NCBI GenBank assembly: GCA_028877205.1
Contig: JAPPHY010000003.1
Location: 143,830-205,044 of the forward strand
Origin: Chloroflexota bacterium
GTDB taxonomy: Bacteria > Chloroflexota > Dehalococcoidia > Lucifugimonadales > UBA2985
Direction: 5' to 3'
Length of the DNA stretch: 61,215 nt
The notes below the pieces were generated by a model. That model worked only from the letters and a program-made list of their open reading frames with translations, had not been told where the DNA came from and ran no database searches. The translations under genes and the position numbers were made by a program. Within the stretch, counting starts at the first letter, position 1. Every line of letters begins with the position of its first letter. Of this stretch, positions 2,483-8,091 are shown piece after piece.

Positions 2483-5020
2483 TTACAGCGCTCGGACCGC
2501 CTCCTCAATCGCATCTGTGGCGTCCTGGTAGGCAGTTCTAGGCGGAAACACCATCGGCTCCCCGAAGCGAATCTCAACCGAACCTCGCCTGAGTATCGGA
2601 TACTTGGCCGGGCTGCCGAATCGCTTGATCTGCAGTTTCATTGGTACCACCGGTAGTCTTCCCTCTACGGCAACCAGGCCGGTGCCATTCTTGAACGGCA
2701 GGATCGGCCCGCCCACCGTCAGCTTGCCCTCCGGGTAGATCAGCACGGACCACCCGCTGTCCAGGATCCGGCCCATGTTTTCGAGGCTGGGCCGTATAGG
2801 GCCATCCTGGGCCAGTGGGAAGCCGTTGCCCAGAAGCGGGTTCAGCACCGAGCGTACGGGGTTTCGCCATAGCTTAGCGGCGGCGGCAATGGCCAGTCGG
2901 CGTCGCCAAGTCTGTGGAATTGCCTTGATGATAAGCGGGTTGTCCAGGCCAAGGTTGTGGTTGGACGCAAAAAGCACCGGGCCTTCTACTCCGCGCAGTC
3001 TTTCCTGCCCGTGCACGCTCAGGCTGTAGGGCGCCAAGACCGCCGGGAACAGCATGGTGCGCTGCAGGAAACCGCGAGCCATTCGGCACCACCAGCGCAT
3101 GCCCCACGCAGGGAAGCGGTTCATGACGGGATTGGCTGCGCCTTCGTCCAGAATCCGCTGGAGCCGGTCGACTGTCGTCTCCGAATCTACCTGGCTCTCG
3201 TCCACGAAGATTCCAAGGTGTGTTTCCACGGCGGACAGCAGCTCCACCCTTCCAAGCGAGTCCAGCCCCAGGTCATTGCCGAGGGTCATGTTGTGGCCAA
3301 TCTCCTCGGCCTCCACCGGCGCCACCTCTGCGATGATCTCCGCGAGGCTCGGTACGCCGTCGCGACGGCGGCCAGAGGTTGGGGTCTGCCGGGCTGTGGA
3401 GGTCGGCGTTGCAGTTCTGAACGAACCGGTCGCCGCAATTTCGTTCAGCGCTTCAATGAGGACGGGCTTCTTGACCTTGAGCGTGTGGGTGCGCGGGAAG
3501 TCCTCTTCCGGCCATACGGTGAAGCCGCGCACGTGCTGCTGCTCCGCAAGCTGCGCGTTCGCCCACGCTACGATCGCCTCAGGGTCGTGGCTGTCCTCGA
3601 GGATCAGTGCGGCGTGCACCTCCACGCTCCCGGCGCGCGGCAGGCCAACGACTGACGAATCCGTCACGCCCGGGTGCCGGTTGAGCACCGCTTGGATGTC
3701 GTCCGGGTAGACGTTCTGGCCGCTGGGCAAGACTATCATGTCCTTCAACCGGCCGCGGATGTGCAGGAAGCCCTCGTCGTCAAAGTGACCCAGGTCGCCG
3801 GTCCTGTACCATCCGTCCACGAAGGCCGCCTCCGTCTGGTCTGGAGCGTTGTAGTAGCCGGGGGAGATGTTCTCGCCGCGCGCCAGGATTTCGCCTTCGC
3901 TGCTGATGACCACCTCGACGTTGGGCAGGGGACGTCCAACGGAGCCCGGTCTGCGGTCCTCCAGCGTGTGGTTGCTGATTACGGGCGACGCCTCGGTTGC
4001 ACCGTAGCCCTGCACGATCTTCACGCCCATTAGCTCCCACTTCCGGCCAAGGTCCGGGTCCAGAGCAGCGCCGCCGGAGACGATGAAGTCCAGCCTCCCA
4101 CCGAACCGCCTGTGGACACGCCCGAACAGATACCTCCGCAGGCGGAACGGAGTCCTTTCGGCCAGCTTCATCAGTTTGCCCCAAAGTGCCTCCTTGCCCT
4201 GATTTCGCACCTCCCGCTCGATGCCGTTCATCAACAGCTCAAGTCCCTGGGGTACCAGGAGCAGGGTGGTTACCCGGCGCTCGCGCATCGTGCGGGCAAG
4301 CACCGCGGGCTGACGGCTGGTGGGATAAGTCACGCTGGCGCCGAAATGGAGCACTGCAAGGAGGCCTCCCATCTGCTCGTACATGTGGCTGAGGGGCAGG
4401 ATTGACAAGAGCCGGCTGGAAGTGTCGCAAGCGATGTACTGCGTAATGCCCTCAATGTTGGCGGTCAGGTTGCGATGCGTCAGCATGACGCCCTTGGGGT
4501 CTCCCGTGGTGCCTGAGGTGAACATGATCTCGACAAGATCGTCAGGCTCTATGTTCACCGGCTCCGGCTCCGGCAGGTCGTATATGGCGCTCTCCAGCTC
4601 CTCAAAGGTAATCTCCGGCACACCGAGGTCCGCATCGCCCTTGGGAGTATAGCGAGAGGTGAAGGCCAACCGCGGCGCAGCGCGATCAATCACGCGGCCC
4701 ACGTAGTCCGGGGCACTTCGCAGGTCGAGCGGCACCACCACTGCGCCGGCTCTCACGCATCCGAAGAAGGCCAGCACCCACTGCGGTGAGTTGGGCCCCC
4801 ACAGCAGCACCTGGTCGCCCTTTGACAGTCCGCGTGACTGGAGCAGCGAGGCCACCTTGCCGGACTCGTTCCAGAGCCTACTGTAGCTCCAGCGCAGGTA
4901 ACGGAAGCCCGGCTTGAAGAGCAGGGCGTCGCGCGAGCCGTACCGACGGGCCCTGCTCTGCAGAAAATCCACCAGCGTTCTCTCCATCTCGGAGTTGGGT
5001 CTACCAGCCGTCTGCTGCAT
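2483..5020 (-). CDS. Acyl-CoA/acyl-ACP synthetase - acyl carrier - glycerolipid acyltransferase fusion
   Basis: An 845-residue three-part protein. Residues about 10-530 are an adenylate-forming fatty-acyl ligase (TSGTTGDPKG at 168-177, GYGATEASP near 338, GWYRTGDLGHFDDEGF near 403). Residues about 555-625 are a carrier domain with LGLDSLG, Ser588 being the expected phosphopantetheine site. Residues about 670-845 are a PlsC-like acyltransferase with NHNLGLD (His688, Asp693) and a YPEGK block at 762-766. It can be read as a self-contained machine that activates a fatty acid, holds it on its own carrier and hands it to a lysophospholipid or glycerophosphate. Start ATG at 5020 has GGGAGG 7 nt upstream and overlaps the end of the upstream hydrolase gene by 20 bases, suggesting an operon. 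Confidence 0.88.
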   Translation of the reverse strand: MQQTAGRPNSEMERTLVDFLQSRARRYGSRDALLFKPGFRYLRWSYSRLWNESGKVASLLQSRGLSKGDQVLLWGPNSPQWVLAFFGCVRAGAVVVPLDLRSAPDYVGRVIDRAAPRLAFTSRYTPKGDADLGVPEITFEELESAIYDLPEPEPVNIEPDDLVEIMFTSGTTGDPKGVMLTHRNLTANIEGITQYIACDTSSRLLSILPLSHMYEQMGGLLAVLHFGASVTYPTSRQPAVLARTMRERRVTTLLLVPQGLELLMNGIEREVRNQGKEALWGKLMKLAERTPFRLRRYLFGRVHRRFGGRLDFIVSGGAALDPDLGRKWELMGVKIVQGYGATEASPVISNHTLEDRRPGSVGRPLPNVEVVISSEGEILARGENISPGYYNAPDQTEAAFVDGWYRTGDLGHFDDEGFLHIRGRLKDMIVLPSGQNVYPDDIQAVLNRHPGVTDSSVVGLPRAGSVEVHAALILEDSHDPEAIVAWANAQLAEQQHVRGFTVWPEEDFPRTHTLKVKKPVLIEALNEIAATGSFRTATPTSTARQTPTSGRRRDGVPSLAEIIAEVAPVEAEEIGHNMTLGNDLGLDSLGRVELLSAVETHLGIFVDESQVDSETTVDRLQRILDEGAANPVMNRFPAWGMRWWCRMARGFLQRTMLFPAVLAPYSLSVHGQERLRGVEGPVLFASNHNLGLDNPLIIKAIPQTWRRRLAIAAAAKLWRNPVRSVLNPLLGNGFPLAQDGPIRPSLENMGRILDSGWSVLIYPEGKLTVGGPILPFKNGTGLVAVEGRLPVVPMKLQIKRFGSPAKYPILRRGSVEIRFGEPMVFPPRTAYQDATDAIEEAVRAL

Positions 5021-5768
5021 CCAGACCTCCCGTCGGCGGCTCGATGGCGCTTGAGATTCGCCTATGCTCGCCCAACATTACCCGCAACTCCGCCTTGGCG
5101 CCGGTTCGCATTGGTGGAAAGTGGGAGAAACAGATGGCATCGAAGTCCATGCCGAGCAGCCTCTCCAAAGAGGCCAGGGACCGCTCCGGGTCCTCGGTGA
5201 CGGCCGCGGCCGGTGGGCTGAGCCTGCGACCCAATCTGTACTGAAGTGAGTCCCCAATGATGACAAGACCACGGTCCGGCACGTACAGCGCAATGCTGCC
5301 GGCGGTGTGCCCAGGCAGATGTATCGCTCGCACGGGCAAAGGGAAGGGCACTTGGTCTCCGTCCTCCAGTTCCACGGCCACAGGAATGGGCCCTCCGCTC
5401 ATCGTGTGGAGGACGGGCGCGGCAAAGCGTGTAACGAGCGTTCTGCGAATGGGGCCGGAGTCAACGCAGCGACCGGCCAGGACGGCGGCATCCAGGCGGT
5501 GGGCCATCACCGCGATGCGTCGGCCTGCTACCAGCTCCGTGACGCCGGATGCGTGGTCAGGATGGTGGTGCGTCAACACGAGCGAGCCGACCGTGTCGAG
5601 CGAGATGCCGAGAGCATCCATGCCGCTGGCGATGAGACCTGAACTGCCGCGCATACCCGCGTCCACAAGGAGCGTCTCCCCGCCAGAGGAGACCACAGTG
5701 ACCCTCGCTCCAATGGCTCGGATCTGGTACACGCCATCTACAACACGAATCGGATTACCCAGCTTCAC
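5001..5768 (-). CDS. Metallo-beta-lactamase-fold hydrolase
   Basis: A 255-residue MBL-fold protein with the metal motif HHHPDH (inside LTHHHPDHASG), a later GHTAGS histidine and GDS aspartate, and a terminal SHFPP histidine. This order matches the dinuclear-zinc hydrolases related to glyoxalase II and AHL lactonases. The substrate is unknown. I chose the GTG at 5768 because GGAGG lies 7 nt upstream; an upstream ATG at 5855 would add an Arg-rich, non-homologous-looking tail. The 3' end overlaps the acyl-ligase fusion gene by 20 bases, so the two are probably co-transcribed. Confidence 0.85.
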   Translation of the reverse strand: MKLGNPIRVVDGVYQIRAIGARVTVVSSGGETLLVDAGMRGSSGLIASGMDALGISLDTVGSLVLTHHHPDHASGVTELVAGRRIAVMAHRLDAAVLAGRCVDSGPIRRTLVTRFAAPVLHTMSGGPIPVAVELEDGDQVPFPLPVRAIHLPGHTAGSIALYVPDRGLVIIGDSLQYRLGRRLSPPAAAVTEDPERSLASLERLLGMDFDAICFSHFPPMRTGAKAELRVMLGEHRRISSAIEPPTGGLDAADGW

Positions 5769-5922
5769 TTGCCGGCCTCCACGTAACGTCGCATGGTCAG
5801 GTGCCCGGTTGACCCTTGGCCGTGGGTACAAAGTATGCCATCCACTCTTGGCCAAATCAAGACGCCGGTCTGTCGTAAACTACAGCCCCGAGTCGCACAA
5901 CACAAGGCGAACAGCCAATGTC

Positions 5923-5952
5923 TTGACTTATGCGCTATGAGTACATTACACT
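5923..5952 (+). promoter_or_regulatory. Promoter 1 of the vapBC locus, leaderless type
   Basis: TTGACT (5923-5928), 18-nt spacer, TACACT (5947-5952). The -10 ends exactly 6 nt before the ATG at 5959, so the predicted transcript starts at or next to the initiation codon, and there is no ribosome site. The identical arrangement recurs 201 bases downstream. Confidence 0.6.
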
Positions 5953-5958
5953 GCGCAC

Positions 5959-6405
5959 ATGACAAAACGATTGCAGGTGATGCTCTCTCAAGAGGAATAC
6001 ACGGAGATCCACAACACGGCACGCAGCAACCGAATGACCGTGGCAGAATGGGTGCGACAGACACTTCGCAAGGCAAGGGAAGGCAGGGATGGGAACTCAC
6101 TCAGGGAAAGCCCGGGAGCCTACTTGACTTATAGGCCATTAGTATATTACACTACTCACATGACAAAGCGGCTACAGGTCCTGCTAGATGAAGAAGAAAT
6201 CACGGAGATTCAGGACGTTGCCCGCGAGCAGCGGCTGACCGTTGCGGAGTGGGTCCGTCAGTCCCTGCGTGCCGCGCGGCATGAACGCCCCGGCGCCACG
6301 GACGTCAAGCTGCGCGCAATTGCGGAGGCGTATCGCCATTCATTTCCAACGGGTGACATAGACTCCCTGCTGGATGAGATTGAAGCCGGCCGGCAGTTGC
6401 AGTGA
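5959..6405 (+). CDS. VapB-like ribbon-helix-helix antitoxin, tandem two-domain form
   Basis: A 148-residue frame with two ribbon-helix-helix DNA-binding units: residues 1-43 and 68-110, each beginning MTKRLQV and containing TVAEWVRQ. Residues 44-67 are the translated second promoter region (including an ITYR-like low-information linker), so this is a fused duplication rather than a designed two-domain protein. The C-terminal tail (about 111-148), rich in acid and aromatic residues, occurs only after copy 2 and is the expected VapC-neutralising segment. RHH antitoxins bind their own promoter as dimers; a fused pair could bind as an intramolecular dimer. The stop overlaps the toxin start (GTGA), the usual antitoxin-toxin coupling. 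An independent short product from 6160 is listed separately. Confidence 0.7.
   Translation: MTKRLQVMLSQEEYTEIHNTARSNRMTVAEWVRQTLRKAREGRDGNSLRESPGAYLTYRPLVYYTTHMTKRLQVLLDEEEITEIQDVAREQRLTVAEWVRQSLRAARHERPGATDVKLRAIAEAYRHSFPTGDIDSLLDEIEAGRQLQ
6124..6153 (+). promoter_or_regulatory. Promoter 2 of the vapBC locus, inside the first antitoxin copy
   Basis: TTGACT (6124-6129), 18-nt spacer, TACACT (6148-6153), ending 6 nt before the ATG at 6160. It duplicates promoter 1 in hexamers, spacing and distance to the start, and again lacks a ribosome site, so it predicts a second leaderless transcript carrying only the downstream antitoxin and the toxin. Confidence 0.6.
6160..6405 (+). CDS. vapB: VapB antitoxin, stand-alone product of the second copy (alternative start)
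   Basis: Starting at the ATG at 6160, in the same frame as the longer protein, gives an 81-residue antitoxin of normal family length: ribbon-helix-helix domain at 1-43 and a C-terminal toxin-binding tail ending DSLLDEIEAGRQLQ. It has its own leaderless promoter. This is probably the ancestral functional antitoxin, with the 148-residue form being an N-terminally extended variant. Which product predominates cannot be told from sequence. Confidence 0.65.
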   Translation: MTKRLQVLLDEEEITEIQDVAREQRLTVAEWVRQSLRAARHERPGATDVKLRAIAEAYRHSFPTGDIDSLLDEIEAGRQLQ

Positions 6406-6797
6406 TTTTCATAGACTCCAACGTGCCCATGTATCTGGTAGGCGCCCCACACGCCAACAAGGACCGCACGCTGGCACTTCTCACCAAGCTGATTGGGGAC
6501 GGGGAACGCATGGTGACAAGCGTGGAGGTGTACCAGGAGATTGTCCACAGGTACATCAGGATCAAACGTCCGGATGCAATTGACCACGCCTTCCGGGCTC
6601 TTGACGACGTGGCCGATGAAGTACTGTCGTTCGGCATGCCTGAAGTACGCGACGCCAGGGAGCTAATCCGGTCCGGAATTGGACTATCCTCGCGTGACGC
6701 GCTCCACGTGGCCGTGATGCGCAGCGCCGGCACCAACCGCATTCTCAGCTTTGACGCGGGGTTCGACGAGTGCCCGGGCATACAGCGCTTGGCGTAA
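6402..6797 (+). CDS. vapC: VapC-like PIN-domain ribonuclease toxin
   Basis: A 131-residue PIN protein starting GTG at 6402 and overlapping the antitoxin stop by 4 bases (GTGA). Acidic metal-binding residues expected in PIN nucleases are visible: Asp5 (FIDSN), Glu42 (SVEVYQE), Asp99 (SSRDALH) and Asp118 (SFDAGFD). Family knowledge: VapC toxins cleave tRNAs or rRNA and are held inactive by VapB. All four acidic positions are present, so the toxin appears intact. Length is typical. Confidence 0.85.
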   Translation: MIFIDSNVPMYLVGAPHANKDRTLALLTKLIGDGERMVTSVEVYQEIVHRYIRIKRPDAIDHAFRALDDVADEVLSFGMPEVRDARELIRSGIGLSSRDALHVAVMRSAGTNRILSFDAGFDECPGIQRLA

Positions 6798-6831: not shown

Positions 6832-8091
6832 CTATTCGCAGGCATCCGTCAGAGCAGTAGGCGCGTTCTCCAATGGCACCTCGCGTTGCTCGGCGCGGGA
6901 CATGTCGCGGAACACGACTACGCCGCGGCTCAGCTCGTCGTCGCCGAGAATTAGCGCATAGGGGACGTTCATGGAGTTGGCGTAGCGCAGCTGCGCCCTG
7001 AGGCTGCGACCGGCCGGCGCCAGCACGGCTCCAAGCCCAGCGCTTCTCAAATCGGAGGCTAGGGCTACAGCCCGTTCCGTCGCTGCTTCTCCCAGGTGAA
7101 TCACTACTGCTCTGAGGGGCGCTTCCTCAACCGGAGGCACGCCCTGGCGCTTCAGGTTGAGGATGATTCGTTCCATGCCGGCTCCGAATCCAATGCCGGG
7201 CGTTGGTGGGCCTTCGAGCTGCTCCATCAGTCCGTCATAGCGGCCGCCGCCGCAGATGTTGGTCTGGCCGCCTTCCTCGGGGGGTTGAATCTCGAAAACC
7301 GTCCTTGAGTAGTAGTCCAGGCCGCGCACCAATCGAGGCTCCACGCGATACGGAATATCCAGTCCGCGCAGGTAGCCAAGCAGGCGTTCCCAGTGGTTCC
7401 TGCAATCCGGACAGAGGTGTTCCTCGGTGCGGGGCGCCTCGTGGGCCATCTCTATACAGGCCGGCTGCTTGCAGTCGAGCAGGCGAAGCGGGTTGCGCTC
7501 CAGCCTGAGCTTGCAGTCGTTGCAAAGATACTCGATGCGGGCAGCGTAGTGGGCGCGGAGCTGTTCGAGATACGCAGGCCTGCAGTTTGCGTCGCCAATC
7601 GAGTTGACGAGCAGCGAGAGGTCCTTTAGGCCCAGGTCGCTCATCAGACGCCACGCCAATTCAATGATCTCGGCGTCCACGGACGGGTCGGCATCCCCGA
7701 TGGCCTCCACACCGAACTGGTGGTGCTGGCGGTACCGACCGGCCTGCGGGCGGTCGTAGCGGAAAATCGGGCAGAAGTAGAAGAGCCGCACGGGCTGGGG
7801 AAGGTTGCGCATGCCGTGCTCCAGGTATGCGCGGCAGACGGGGGCAGTCCCCTCGGGTCTCAGGGCTACATGGTCGCCGCCCCGGTCCTCGAAGGTGTAC
7901 ATCTCCTTCTCCACGATGTCGGTGACCTGGCCGACGCCGCGCACGAACAGTCCGCTGCTCTCGAACACGGGCGTATCCAGACGGCCATAGCCGAAGCGGC
8001 GCGCCACGTCGCGGGCGATGCCTTCCACGTAGCGCCAGTATGGCTGCTCCTCTGGCAGGACGTCTGCCGTGCCTCTTGGTGCTCGGTACAA
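6832..8091 (-). CDS. hisS: Histidyl-tRNA synthetase
   Basis: A 419-residue class II aminoacyl-tRNA synthetase that charges tRNA-His. Visible blocks include RGTADVLPEE at the N terminus, the motif 2 region around FRYDRPQAGRYRQHHQFG, the histidine-specific LVRGLDYYSRTVFE, and motif 3 near GIGFGAGMERI. An insertion contains CNDCK and CPDC, a zinc-binding type knuckle seen in some HisRS proteins. Start is TTG at 8091: GGAGGG lies about 6 nt upstream and no ATG fits. The anticodon-binding domain occupies the last 100 residues. The downstream neighbour is convergent vapC. Confidence 0.95.
   Translation of the reverse strand: MYRAPRGTADVLPEEQPYWRYVEGIARDVARRFGYGRLDTPVFESSGLFVRGVGQVTDIVEKEMYTFEDRGGDHVALRPEGTAPVCRAYLEHGMRNLPQPVRLFYFCPIFRYDRPQAGRYRQHHQFGVEAIGDADPSVDAEIIELAWRLMSDLGLKDLSLLVNSIGDANCRPAYLEQLRAHYAARIEYLCNDCKLRLERNPLRLLDCKQPACIEMAHEAPRTEEHLCPDCRNHWERLLGYLRGLDIPYRVEPRLVRGLDYYSRTVFEIQPPEEGGQTNICGGGRYDGLMEQLEGPPTPGIGFGAGMERIILNLKRQGVPPVEEAPLRAVVIHLGEAATERAVALASDLRSAGLGAVLAPAGRSLRAQLRYANSMNVPYALILGDDELSRGVVVFRDMSRAEQREVPLENAPTALTDACE

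Follow-up and report, generated by a model that had tools for sequence, protein, structure and literature searches.

The window analysed here, a 61,215-nt stretch of a Chloroflexota genome, carries a toxin-antitoxin operon in which the promoter, the 6-nt gap behind it, and the N-terminal ribbon-helix-helix (RHH) codons of the antitoxin are present twice, in the same orientation (Table 1). Sequence self-comparison delimits a 147-nt direct repeat at positions 5922–6068 and 6123–6269, with 71% identity and a spacing of 201 nt, which bears out the duplication with this period that the initial annotation had proposed. The 201-nt period is divisible by three and the copies are not separated by a stop, so the frame is open across both and they are fused in frame as had been claimed. 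The family HMM matches the resulting 148-aa protein twice, at residues 1–44 and 68–147. Copy 1 has no toxin-binding tail, and amino acid similarity between the copies stops near codon 43. Copy 2 aligns to the HMM over its whole length (124 bits) and provides the normal 81-residue antitoxin frame that was also part of the earlier description. Provided promoter 2 is active, this 81-aa antitoxin would be leaderless from it. At such low identity between the copies, an assembly artefact was ruled out as the source of the double unit. Comparison of the copy 1 tail (residues 41–55) with the VapB C-terminus gave no convincing homology. On one side of the operon lies a divergently oriented metallo-beta-lactamase-fold-like ORF (window 5001–5855, minus strand) and on the other an opposing histidyl-tRNA-synthetase-like ORF (window 6832–8091, minus strand), both named by inspection of their translations only.

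Table 1 Features of the duplicated antitoxin locus, in window positions.
Feature	Position	Strand	Details
Promoter/operator 1	5923..5952	+	-35 TTGACT 5923-5928, N18, -10 TACACT 5947-5952
Operator 1 half-sites	TGACTTAT 5924-5931; ATGAGT 5937-5942	+	From sequence and family comparison
Double-RHH antitoxin ORF, 148 aa	5959..6405	+	No internal stop; leaderless from promoter 1
Copy 1, N-terminal RHH domain, residues 1-43	5959..6087	+	Family HMM 64.5 bits; predicted beta-alpha-alpha
Linker, residues 44-67	6088..6159	+	Promoter 2 supplies part of its codons (YLTYRPLVYYTTH); disorder predicted, from translation and model
Promoter/operator 2, within the long ORF	6124..6153	+	-35 TTGACT 6124-6129, N18, -10 TACACT 6148-6153
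Operator 2 half-site ATTAGT	6138-6143	+	In-frame stop lost (ATGAGT to ATTAGT)
Copy 2, complete 81-aa VapB-like antitoxin, RHH and C-terminal tail	6160..6405	+	Inner ATG at 6160
VapC-like PIN-domain toxin ORF	6402..6797	+	GTG start; 4-nt overlap with antitoxin stop (GTGA)

The downstream ORF is a PIN domain (Pfam PF01850, E 1.3e-15), in agreement with the toxin called earlier, and by inspection its acidic residues D5, E42/E46, D99, and D118/D122 are all there. The -4 overlap between antitoxin and toxin is also found in 48 of 61 relatives. The antitoxin has RHH-like Pfam matches and is predicted to form a beta-alpha-alpha unit followed by tail helices, the latter being the putative toxin-binding part. 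For the 148-aa protein, the best curated match was PF21983 (NikA-like, 36 bits), an RHH family, with RHH_1 below the cut-off. In the search of curated family models no VapB model reached the cut-off for the antitoxin, a sequence search of solved structures gave no match for either antitoxin or toxin, and a PADLOC scan returned nothing convincing at the locus. Among relatives, an inverted repeat, TGACTCAT-N4/5-ATGAGTCA, is conserved over the -35 and -10 and is a candidate operator. Judged by sequence, the locus is a variant of a VapBC-like type II toxin-antitoxin operon, belonging to a leaderless-promoter family. Like VapBC and FitAB, it has an RHH antitoxin first and a PIN toxin second, a 4-nt overlap, and a putative operator formed by an inverted repeat across the promoter; FitAB uses RHH motifs to bind its operator (cited in PMC3384007). 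Unlike in these systems, the operator-promoter and RHH domain are doubled and fused here, with one tail per two RHH domains and a nested second promoter.

Relatives were gathered from 84,980 species, each represented by one genome, and from 1,379 whole genomes. Approximately 110 single-antitoxin loci were found in Chloroflexota, Gemmatimonadota, Acidobacteriota, Pseudomonadota, Actinomycetota, Binatota, and others, with antitoxins mostly of 81–95 aa. In most, a PIN toxin follows the antitoxin, and the ATG lies 6–7 nt after the -10 in the arrangement TTGACTCAT-N4/5-ATGAGTCA-..-TAnACT(CAT)-ATG. Leaderlessness, the 6-nt gap, and the spacing are the family norm and not peculiar to the duplication; the unusual part is the second unit and the open frame. 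A second tandem unit is absent from all of the approximately 110 relative loci, and the double unit appeared in no other genome searched within the family (5 genomes), order (250), class (393), or phylum (400). Only one genome is known to encode the 148-aa long form. Two candidates for extended relatives, L006 and L025, were rejected as having no upstream copy, and no relatives were found among viral contigs and plasmids. The leaderless reading of the family agrees with published transcript mapping for M. tuberculosis: of 37 mapped toxin-antitoxin pairs that have a primary start site, 32 lack a leader (PMC3898074). A second antitoxin promoter nested as it is here was not seen described there. 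Across loci L005–L127, the leaderless operator-promoter (TTGACTCAT-N4/5-ATGAGTCA-..-TAnACTCAT-ATG) is conserved with the antitoxin over many phyla, and this joint conservation suggests that operator and antitoxin travel as a single module. One genome of the same order (G1172) has two separate single-copy family members, L120 and L127.

Each promoter ends 6 nt before its own ATG. The two TTGACT-N18-TACACT promoters that had been annotated have identical cores, and a search of the complete 2.0-Mb genome that tolerated up to three mismatches recovered no others. The family operator pattern has two sites in the window and none in 100 window shuffles. Between the copies, none of the 12 promoter core bases has changed, compared with 26 of 43 third codon positions (Fisher p 1.4e-4); core conservation gives p 0.009 against all other columns and 0.07 when only the remaining promoter bases serve as the comparison. 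The operator 1 half-site ATGAGT contains an in-frame TGA at 5938–5940. An in-frame operator stop is present in copy 1 and in 14 of 14 relatives with the 18/6 geometry, and only copy 2 lacks it. When relatives of every spacing are counted, 20 of 62 have an open frame through the operator; openness by itself is not rare, and the usual stop is absent exactly where the fusion requires none. Because its half-site has changed, operator 2 may mediate weaker repression.

An AlphaFold2 model of the 148-aa protein, built on a 51-sequence alignment, contains two beta-alpha-alpha units, the first with a strand at residues 2–10 and helices at 11–23 and 28–44, and the second with a strand at 69–77 and helices at 78–90 and 95–108. 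The model is of moderate confidence overall (mean pLDDT 66, pTM 0.53), with pLDDT at 74–83 in the RHH parts and below 50 at residues 44–66, the predicted disordered linker between the RHH units. In VIA-align comparisons, residues 1–111 of the model matched F TraY (Z 12.3), permuted single-chain Arc (Z 10.6), and AvtR (Z 8.6). As a prediction, this supports residues 1–111 forming the intramolecular RHH dimer that the initial annotation had envisaged. F-plasmid TraY and AvtR are natural single-chain RHH dimers, in which a pair of RHH motifs on the same polypeptide builds the dimer fold (PMC12117103, PMC5569661), and permuted single-chain Arc is an engineered one; all three have two RHH motifs per chain, as in the predicted model of the 148-aa protein. 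Unlike that protein, they are not antitoxins and have no toxin partner, and they bear no close sequence relation to it (about 8–14% identity in the structural alignments).

Fusions of a related type occur in Gemmatimonadota, where proteins of 137–150 aa (L128–L139 and L141) join the same RHH module in frame to a VapB-like second half of a different kind. The second half of L141 is PF09957-like, just under the cut-off, and those of the other fusions are VapB-like by inspection. These proteins also have a leaderless operator-promoter, e.g. ATGAGTATATCATACTCAT, and the next ORF is a VapC-like PIN domain, with a -4 overlap in most. They share with the locus described here a leaderless promoter and RHH module of one family, fused ahead of a second antitoxin. 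In contrast to it they are heterotypic, the second half being of another VapB type, and an internal promoter is absent. Going by these proteins, double-RHH antitoxins of two makes exist, and the existence of the other make renders the 148-aa fusion more credible as a working protein. The occurrence of differently built fusions in another phylum also suggests that antitoxins have gained a leaderless RHH module more than once.

The Gemmatimonadota proteins, which do without an internal promoter, also lend some weight to the possibility that the 148-aa double-RHH antitoxin is the sole product here, with promoter 2 no longer initiating and retained because it serves as an additional operator and encodes part of the linker. 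The altered operator 2 half-site and the lost stop would be expected of DNA that had become coding. Yet promoter 2 keeps a -35 and -10 identical to those of promoter 1, with the 18/6 geometry and the leaderless ATG intact, and we consider a sole long product unlikely.

The copies differ at 47 of 129 coding bases, 26 of these being third positions. Comparison of copy 1 with copy 2 (NG86) gives a dN of 0.25–0.30 and a dS saturated at about 3, so the duplication is probably old. The initial annotation had suggested checking copy 1 for purifying selection, and this was run against outgroups using a branch codon model (GY94-type, own script). Omega on the copy 1 branch is 0.05–0.07; with same-order outgroups, an omega of 1 is worse by 11.5 lnL units and an omega of 0.5 by 6.6. 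Copy 1 is under strong purifying selection, though part of the signal could predate truncation and fusion, since synonymous sites are saturated. Copy 1 also retains the invariant and nearly invariant RHH residues of the family, and its HMM score falls in the lower part of the family range. Both halves of the fused antitoxin seem to be maintained by selection. These results bear on the alternative that copy 1 is a relic in decay and that promoter 2, the 81-aa antitoxin, and VapC make up the working operon, with the open frame accidental. Copy 1 is absent from all relatives, lacks the tail, and sits on a branch roughly double the length of the copy 2 branch, all of which would fit decay. However, the low omega of about 0.07, with 0.5 and 1 rejected, and the retained RHH residues do not, nor does the frame open over 148 codons, and it is promoter 1 that holds the better-kept operator half-site (ATGAGT). 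The codon analysis disfavors a relic, which we regard as improbable.

In trees of promoter and coding DNA together, the copies are sisters with support of 84/88 to 94/96, and the best free 14-taxon coding tree (codon model) also pairs them; other coding-only trees leave the sister relation undecided (AU p 0.29 and 0.51). Residue T15 is common to both copies and missing in the other 63 family members, and both copies carry the promoter variants TTGACTTAT and AGTA.ATTACACT. These common features point to a local duplication with matched operators. The double unit could instead have arisen when an incoming module landed on a resident one and so joined two distinct vapB loci. Copy 2 coding DNA is nearer to single-copy relatives (95/123 to L127) than to copy 1 (80/123), and the dispersal of the family over phyla implies mobility. 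Against it, T15 and the promoter bases are shared derived features of the two copies, and the promoter-including trees and the free 14-taxon tree pair them. An old local duplication is probably the better reading, with a join of two loci somewhat unlikely. The two differ on origin only; on function, a join would work in the same way as the explanation that we favor and overlaps with the other readings.

We infer that both proteins are produced and that autoregulation is altered. In our favored explanation, which taken whole we judge to be about evenly poised between right and wrong, an old in-frame tandem duplication put an operator-promoter and RHH domain ahead of a complete antitoxin, and the in-frame stop of the operator was lost in copy 2. 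Promoter 1 would give a 148-aa single-chain double-RHH antitoxin, with an intramolecular RHH dimer and one toxin-binding tail, and promoter 2, inside the long ORF, would give an ordinary 81-aa antitoxin, with both transcripts able to continue into vapC. The putative DNA-contacting strand, TKRLQV, is present in both antitoxins. Both would act as repressors at two matching operators and would neutralize VapC via the single C-terminal tail. The long form would be pre-dimerized and bring one tail to each DNA-binding unit, so that repression should peak at a different antitoxin:toxin ratio. In type II systems, conditional cooperativity rests on antitoxin dimers and on the stoichiometry of the toxin. 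More tentatively, and with a somewhat less than even chance, the locus may have two-level autoregulation, in which one gene with two leaderless promoters, the second doubling as a linker, yields a pre-dimerized single-tail repressor and a normal homodimerizing antitoxin and follows a different conditional-cooperativity curve.

The second unit and the in-frame fusion with a nested promoter are new within VapBC-like operons, and make the locus an uncommon variant of a common system; no double-RHH antitoxins were found in the open-access literature searched, an incomplete body. A natural, tethered RHH dimer that carries one toxin-binding tail, beside a normal antitoxin, would offer a ready-made test of conditional cooperativity, and the use of the same DNA as promoter, operator, and protein linker would be a clear case of overlapping function. 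In the mqsRA system, extra promoters likewise yield antitoxin apart from the main operon promoter (PMC6918082). Those promoters drive mqsA without the toxin, whereas the inner promoter here, lying within the antitoxin gene, would also transcribe vapC.
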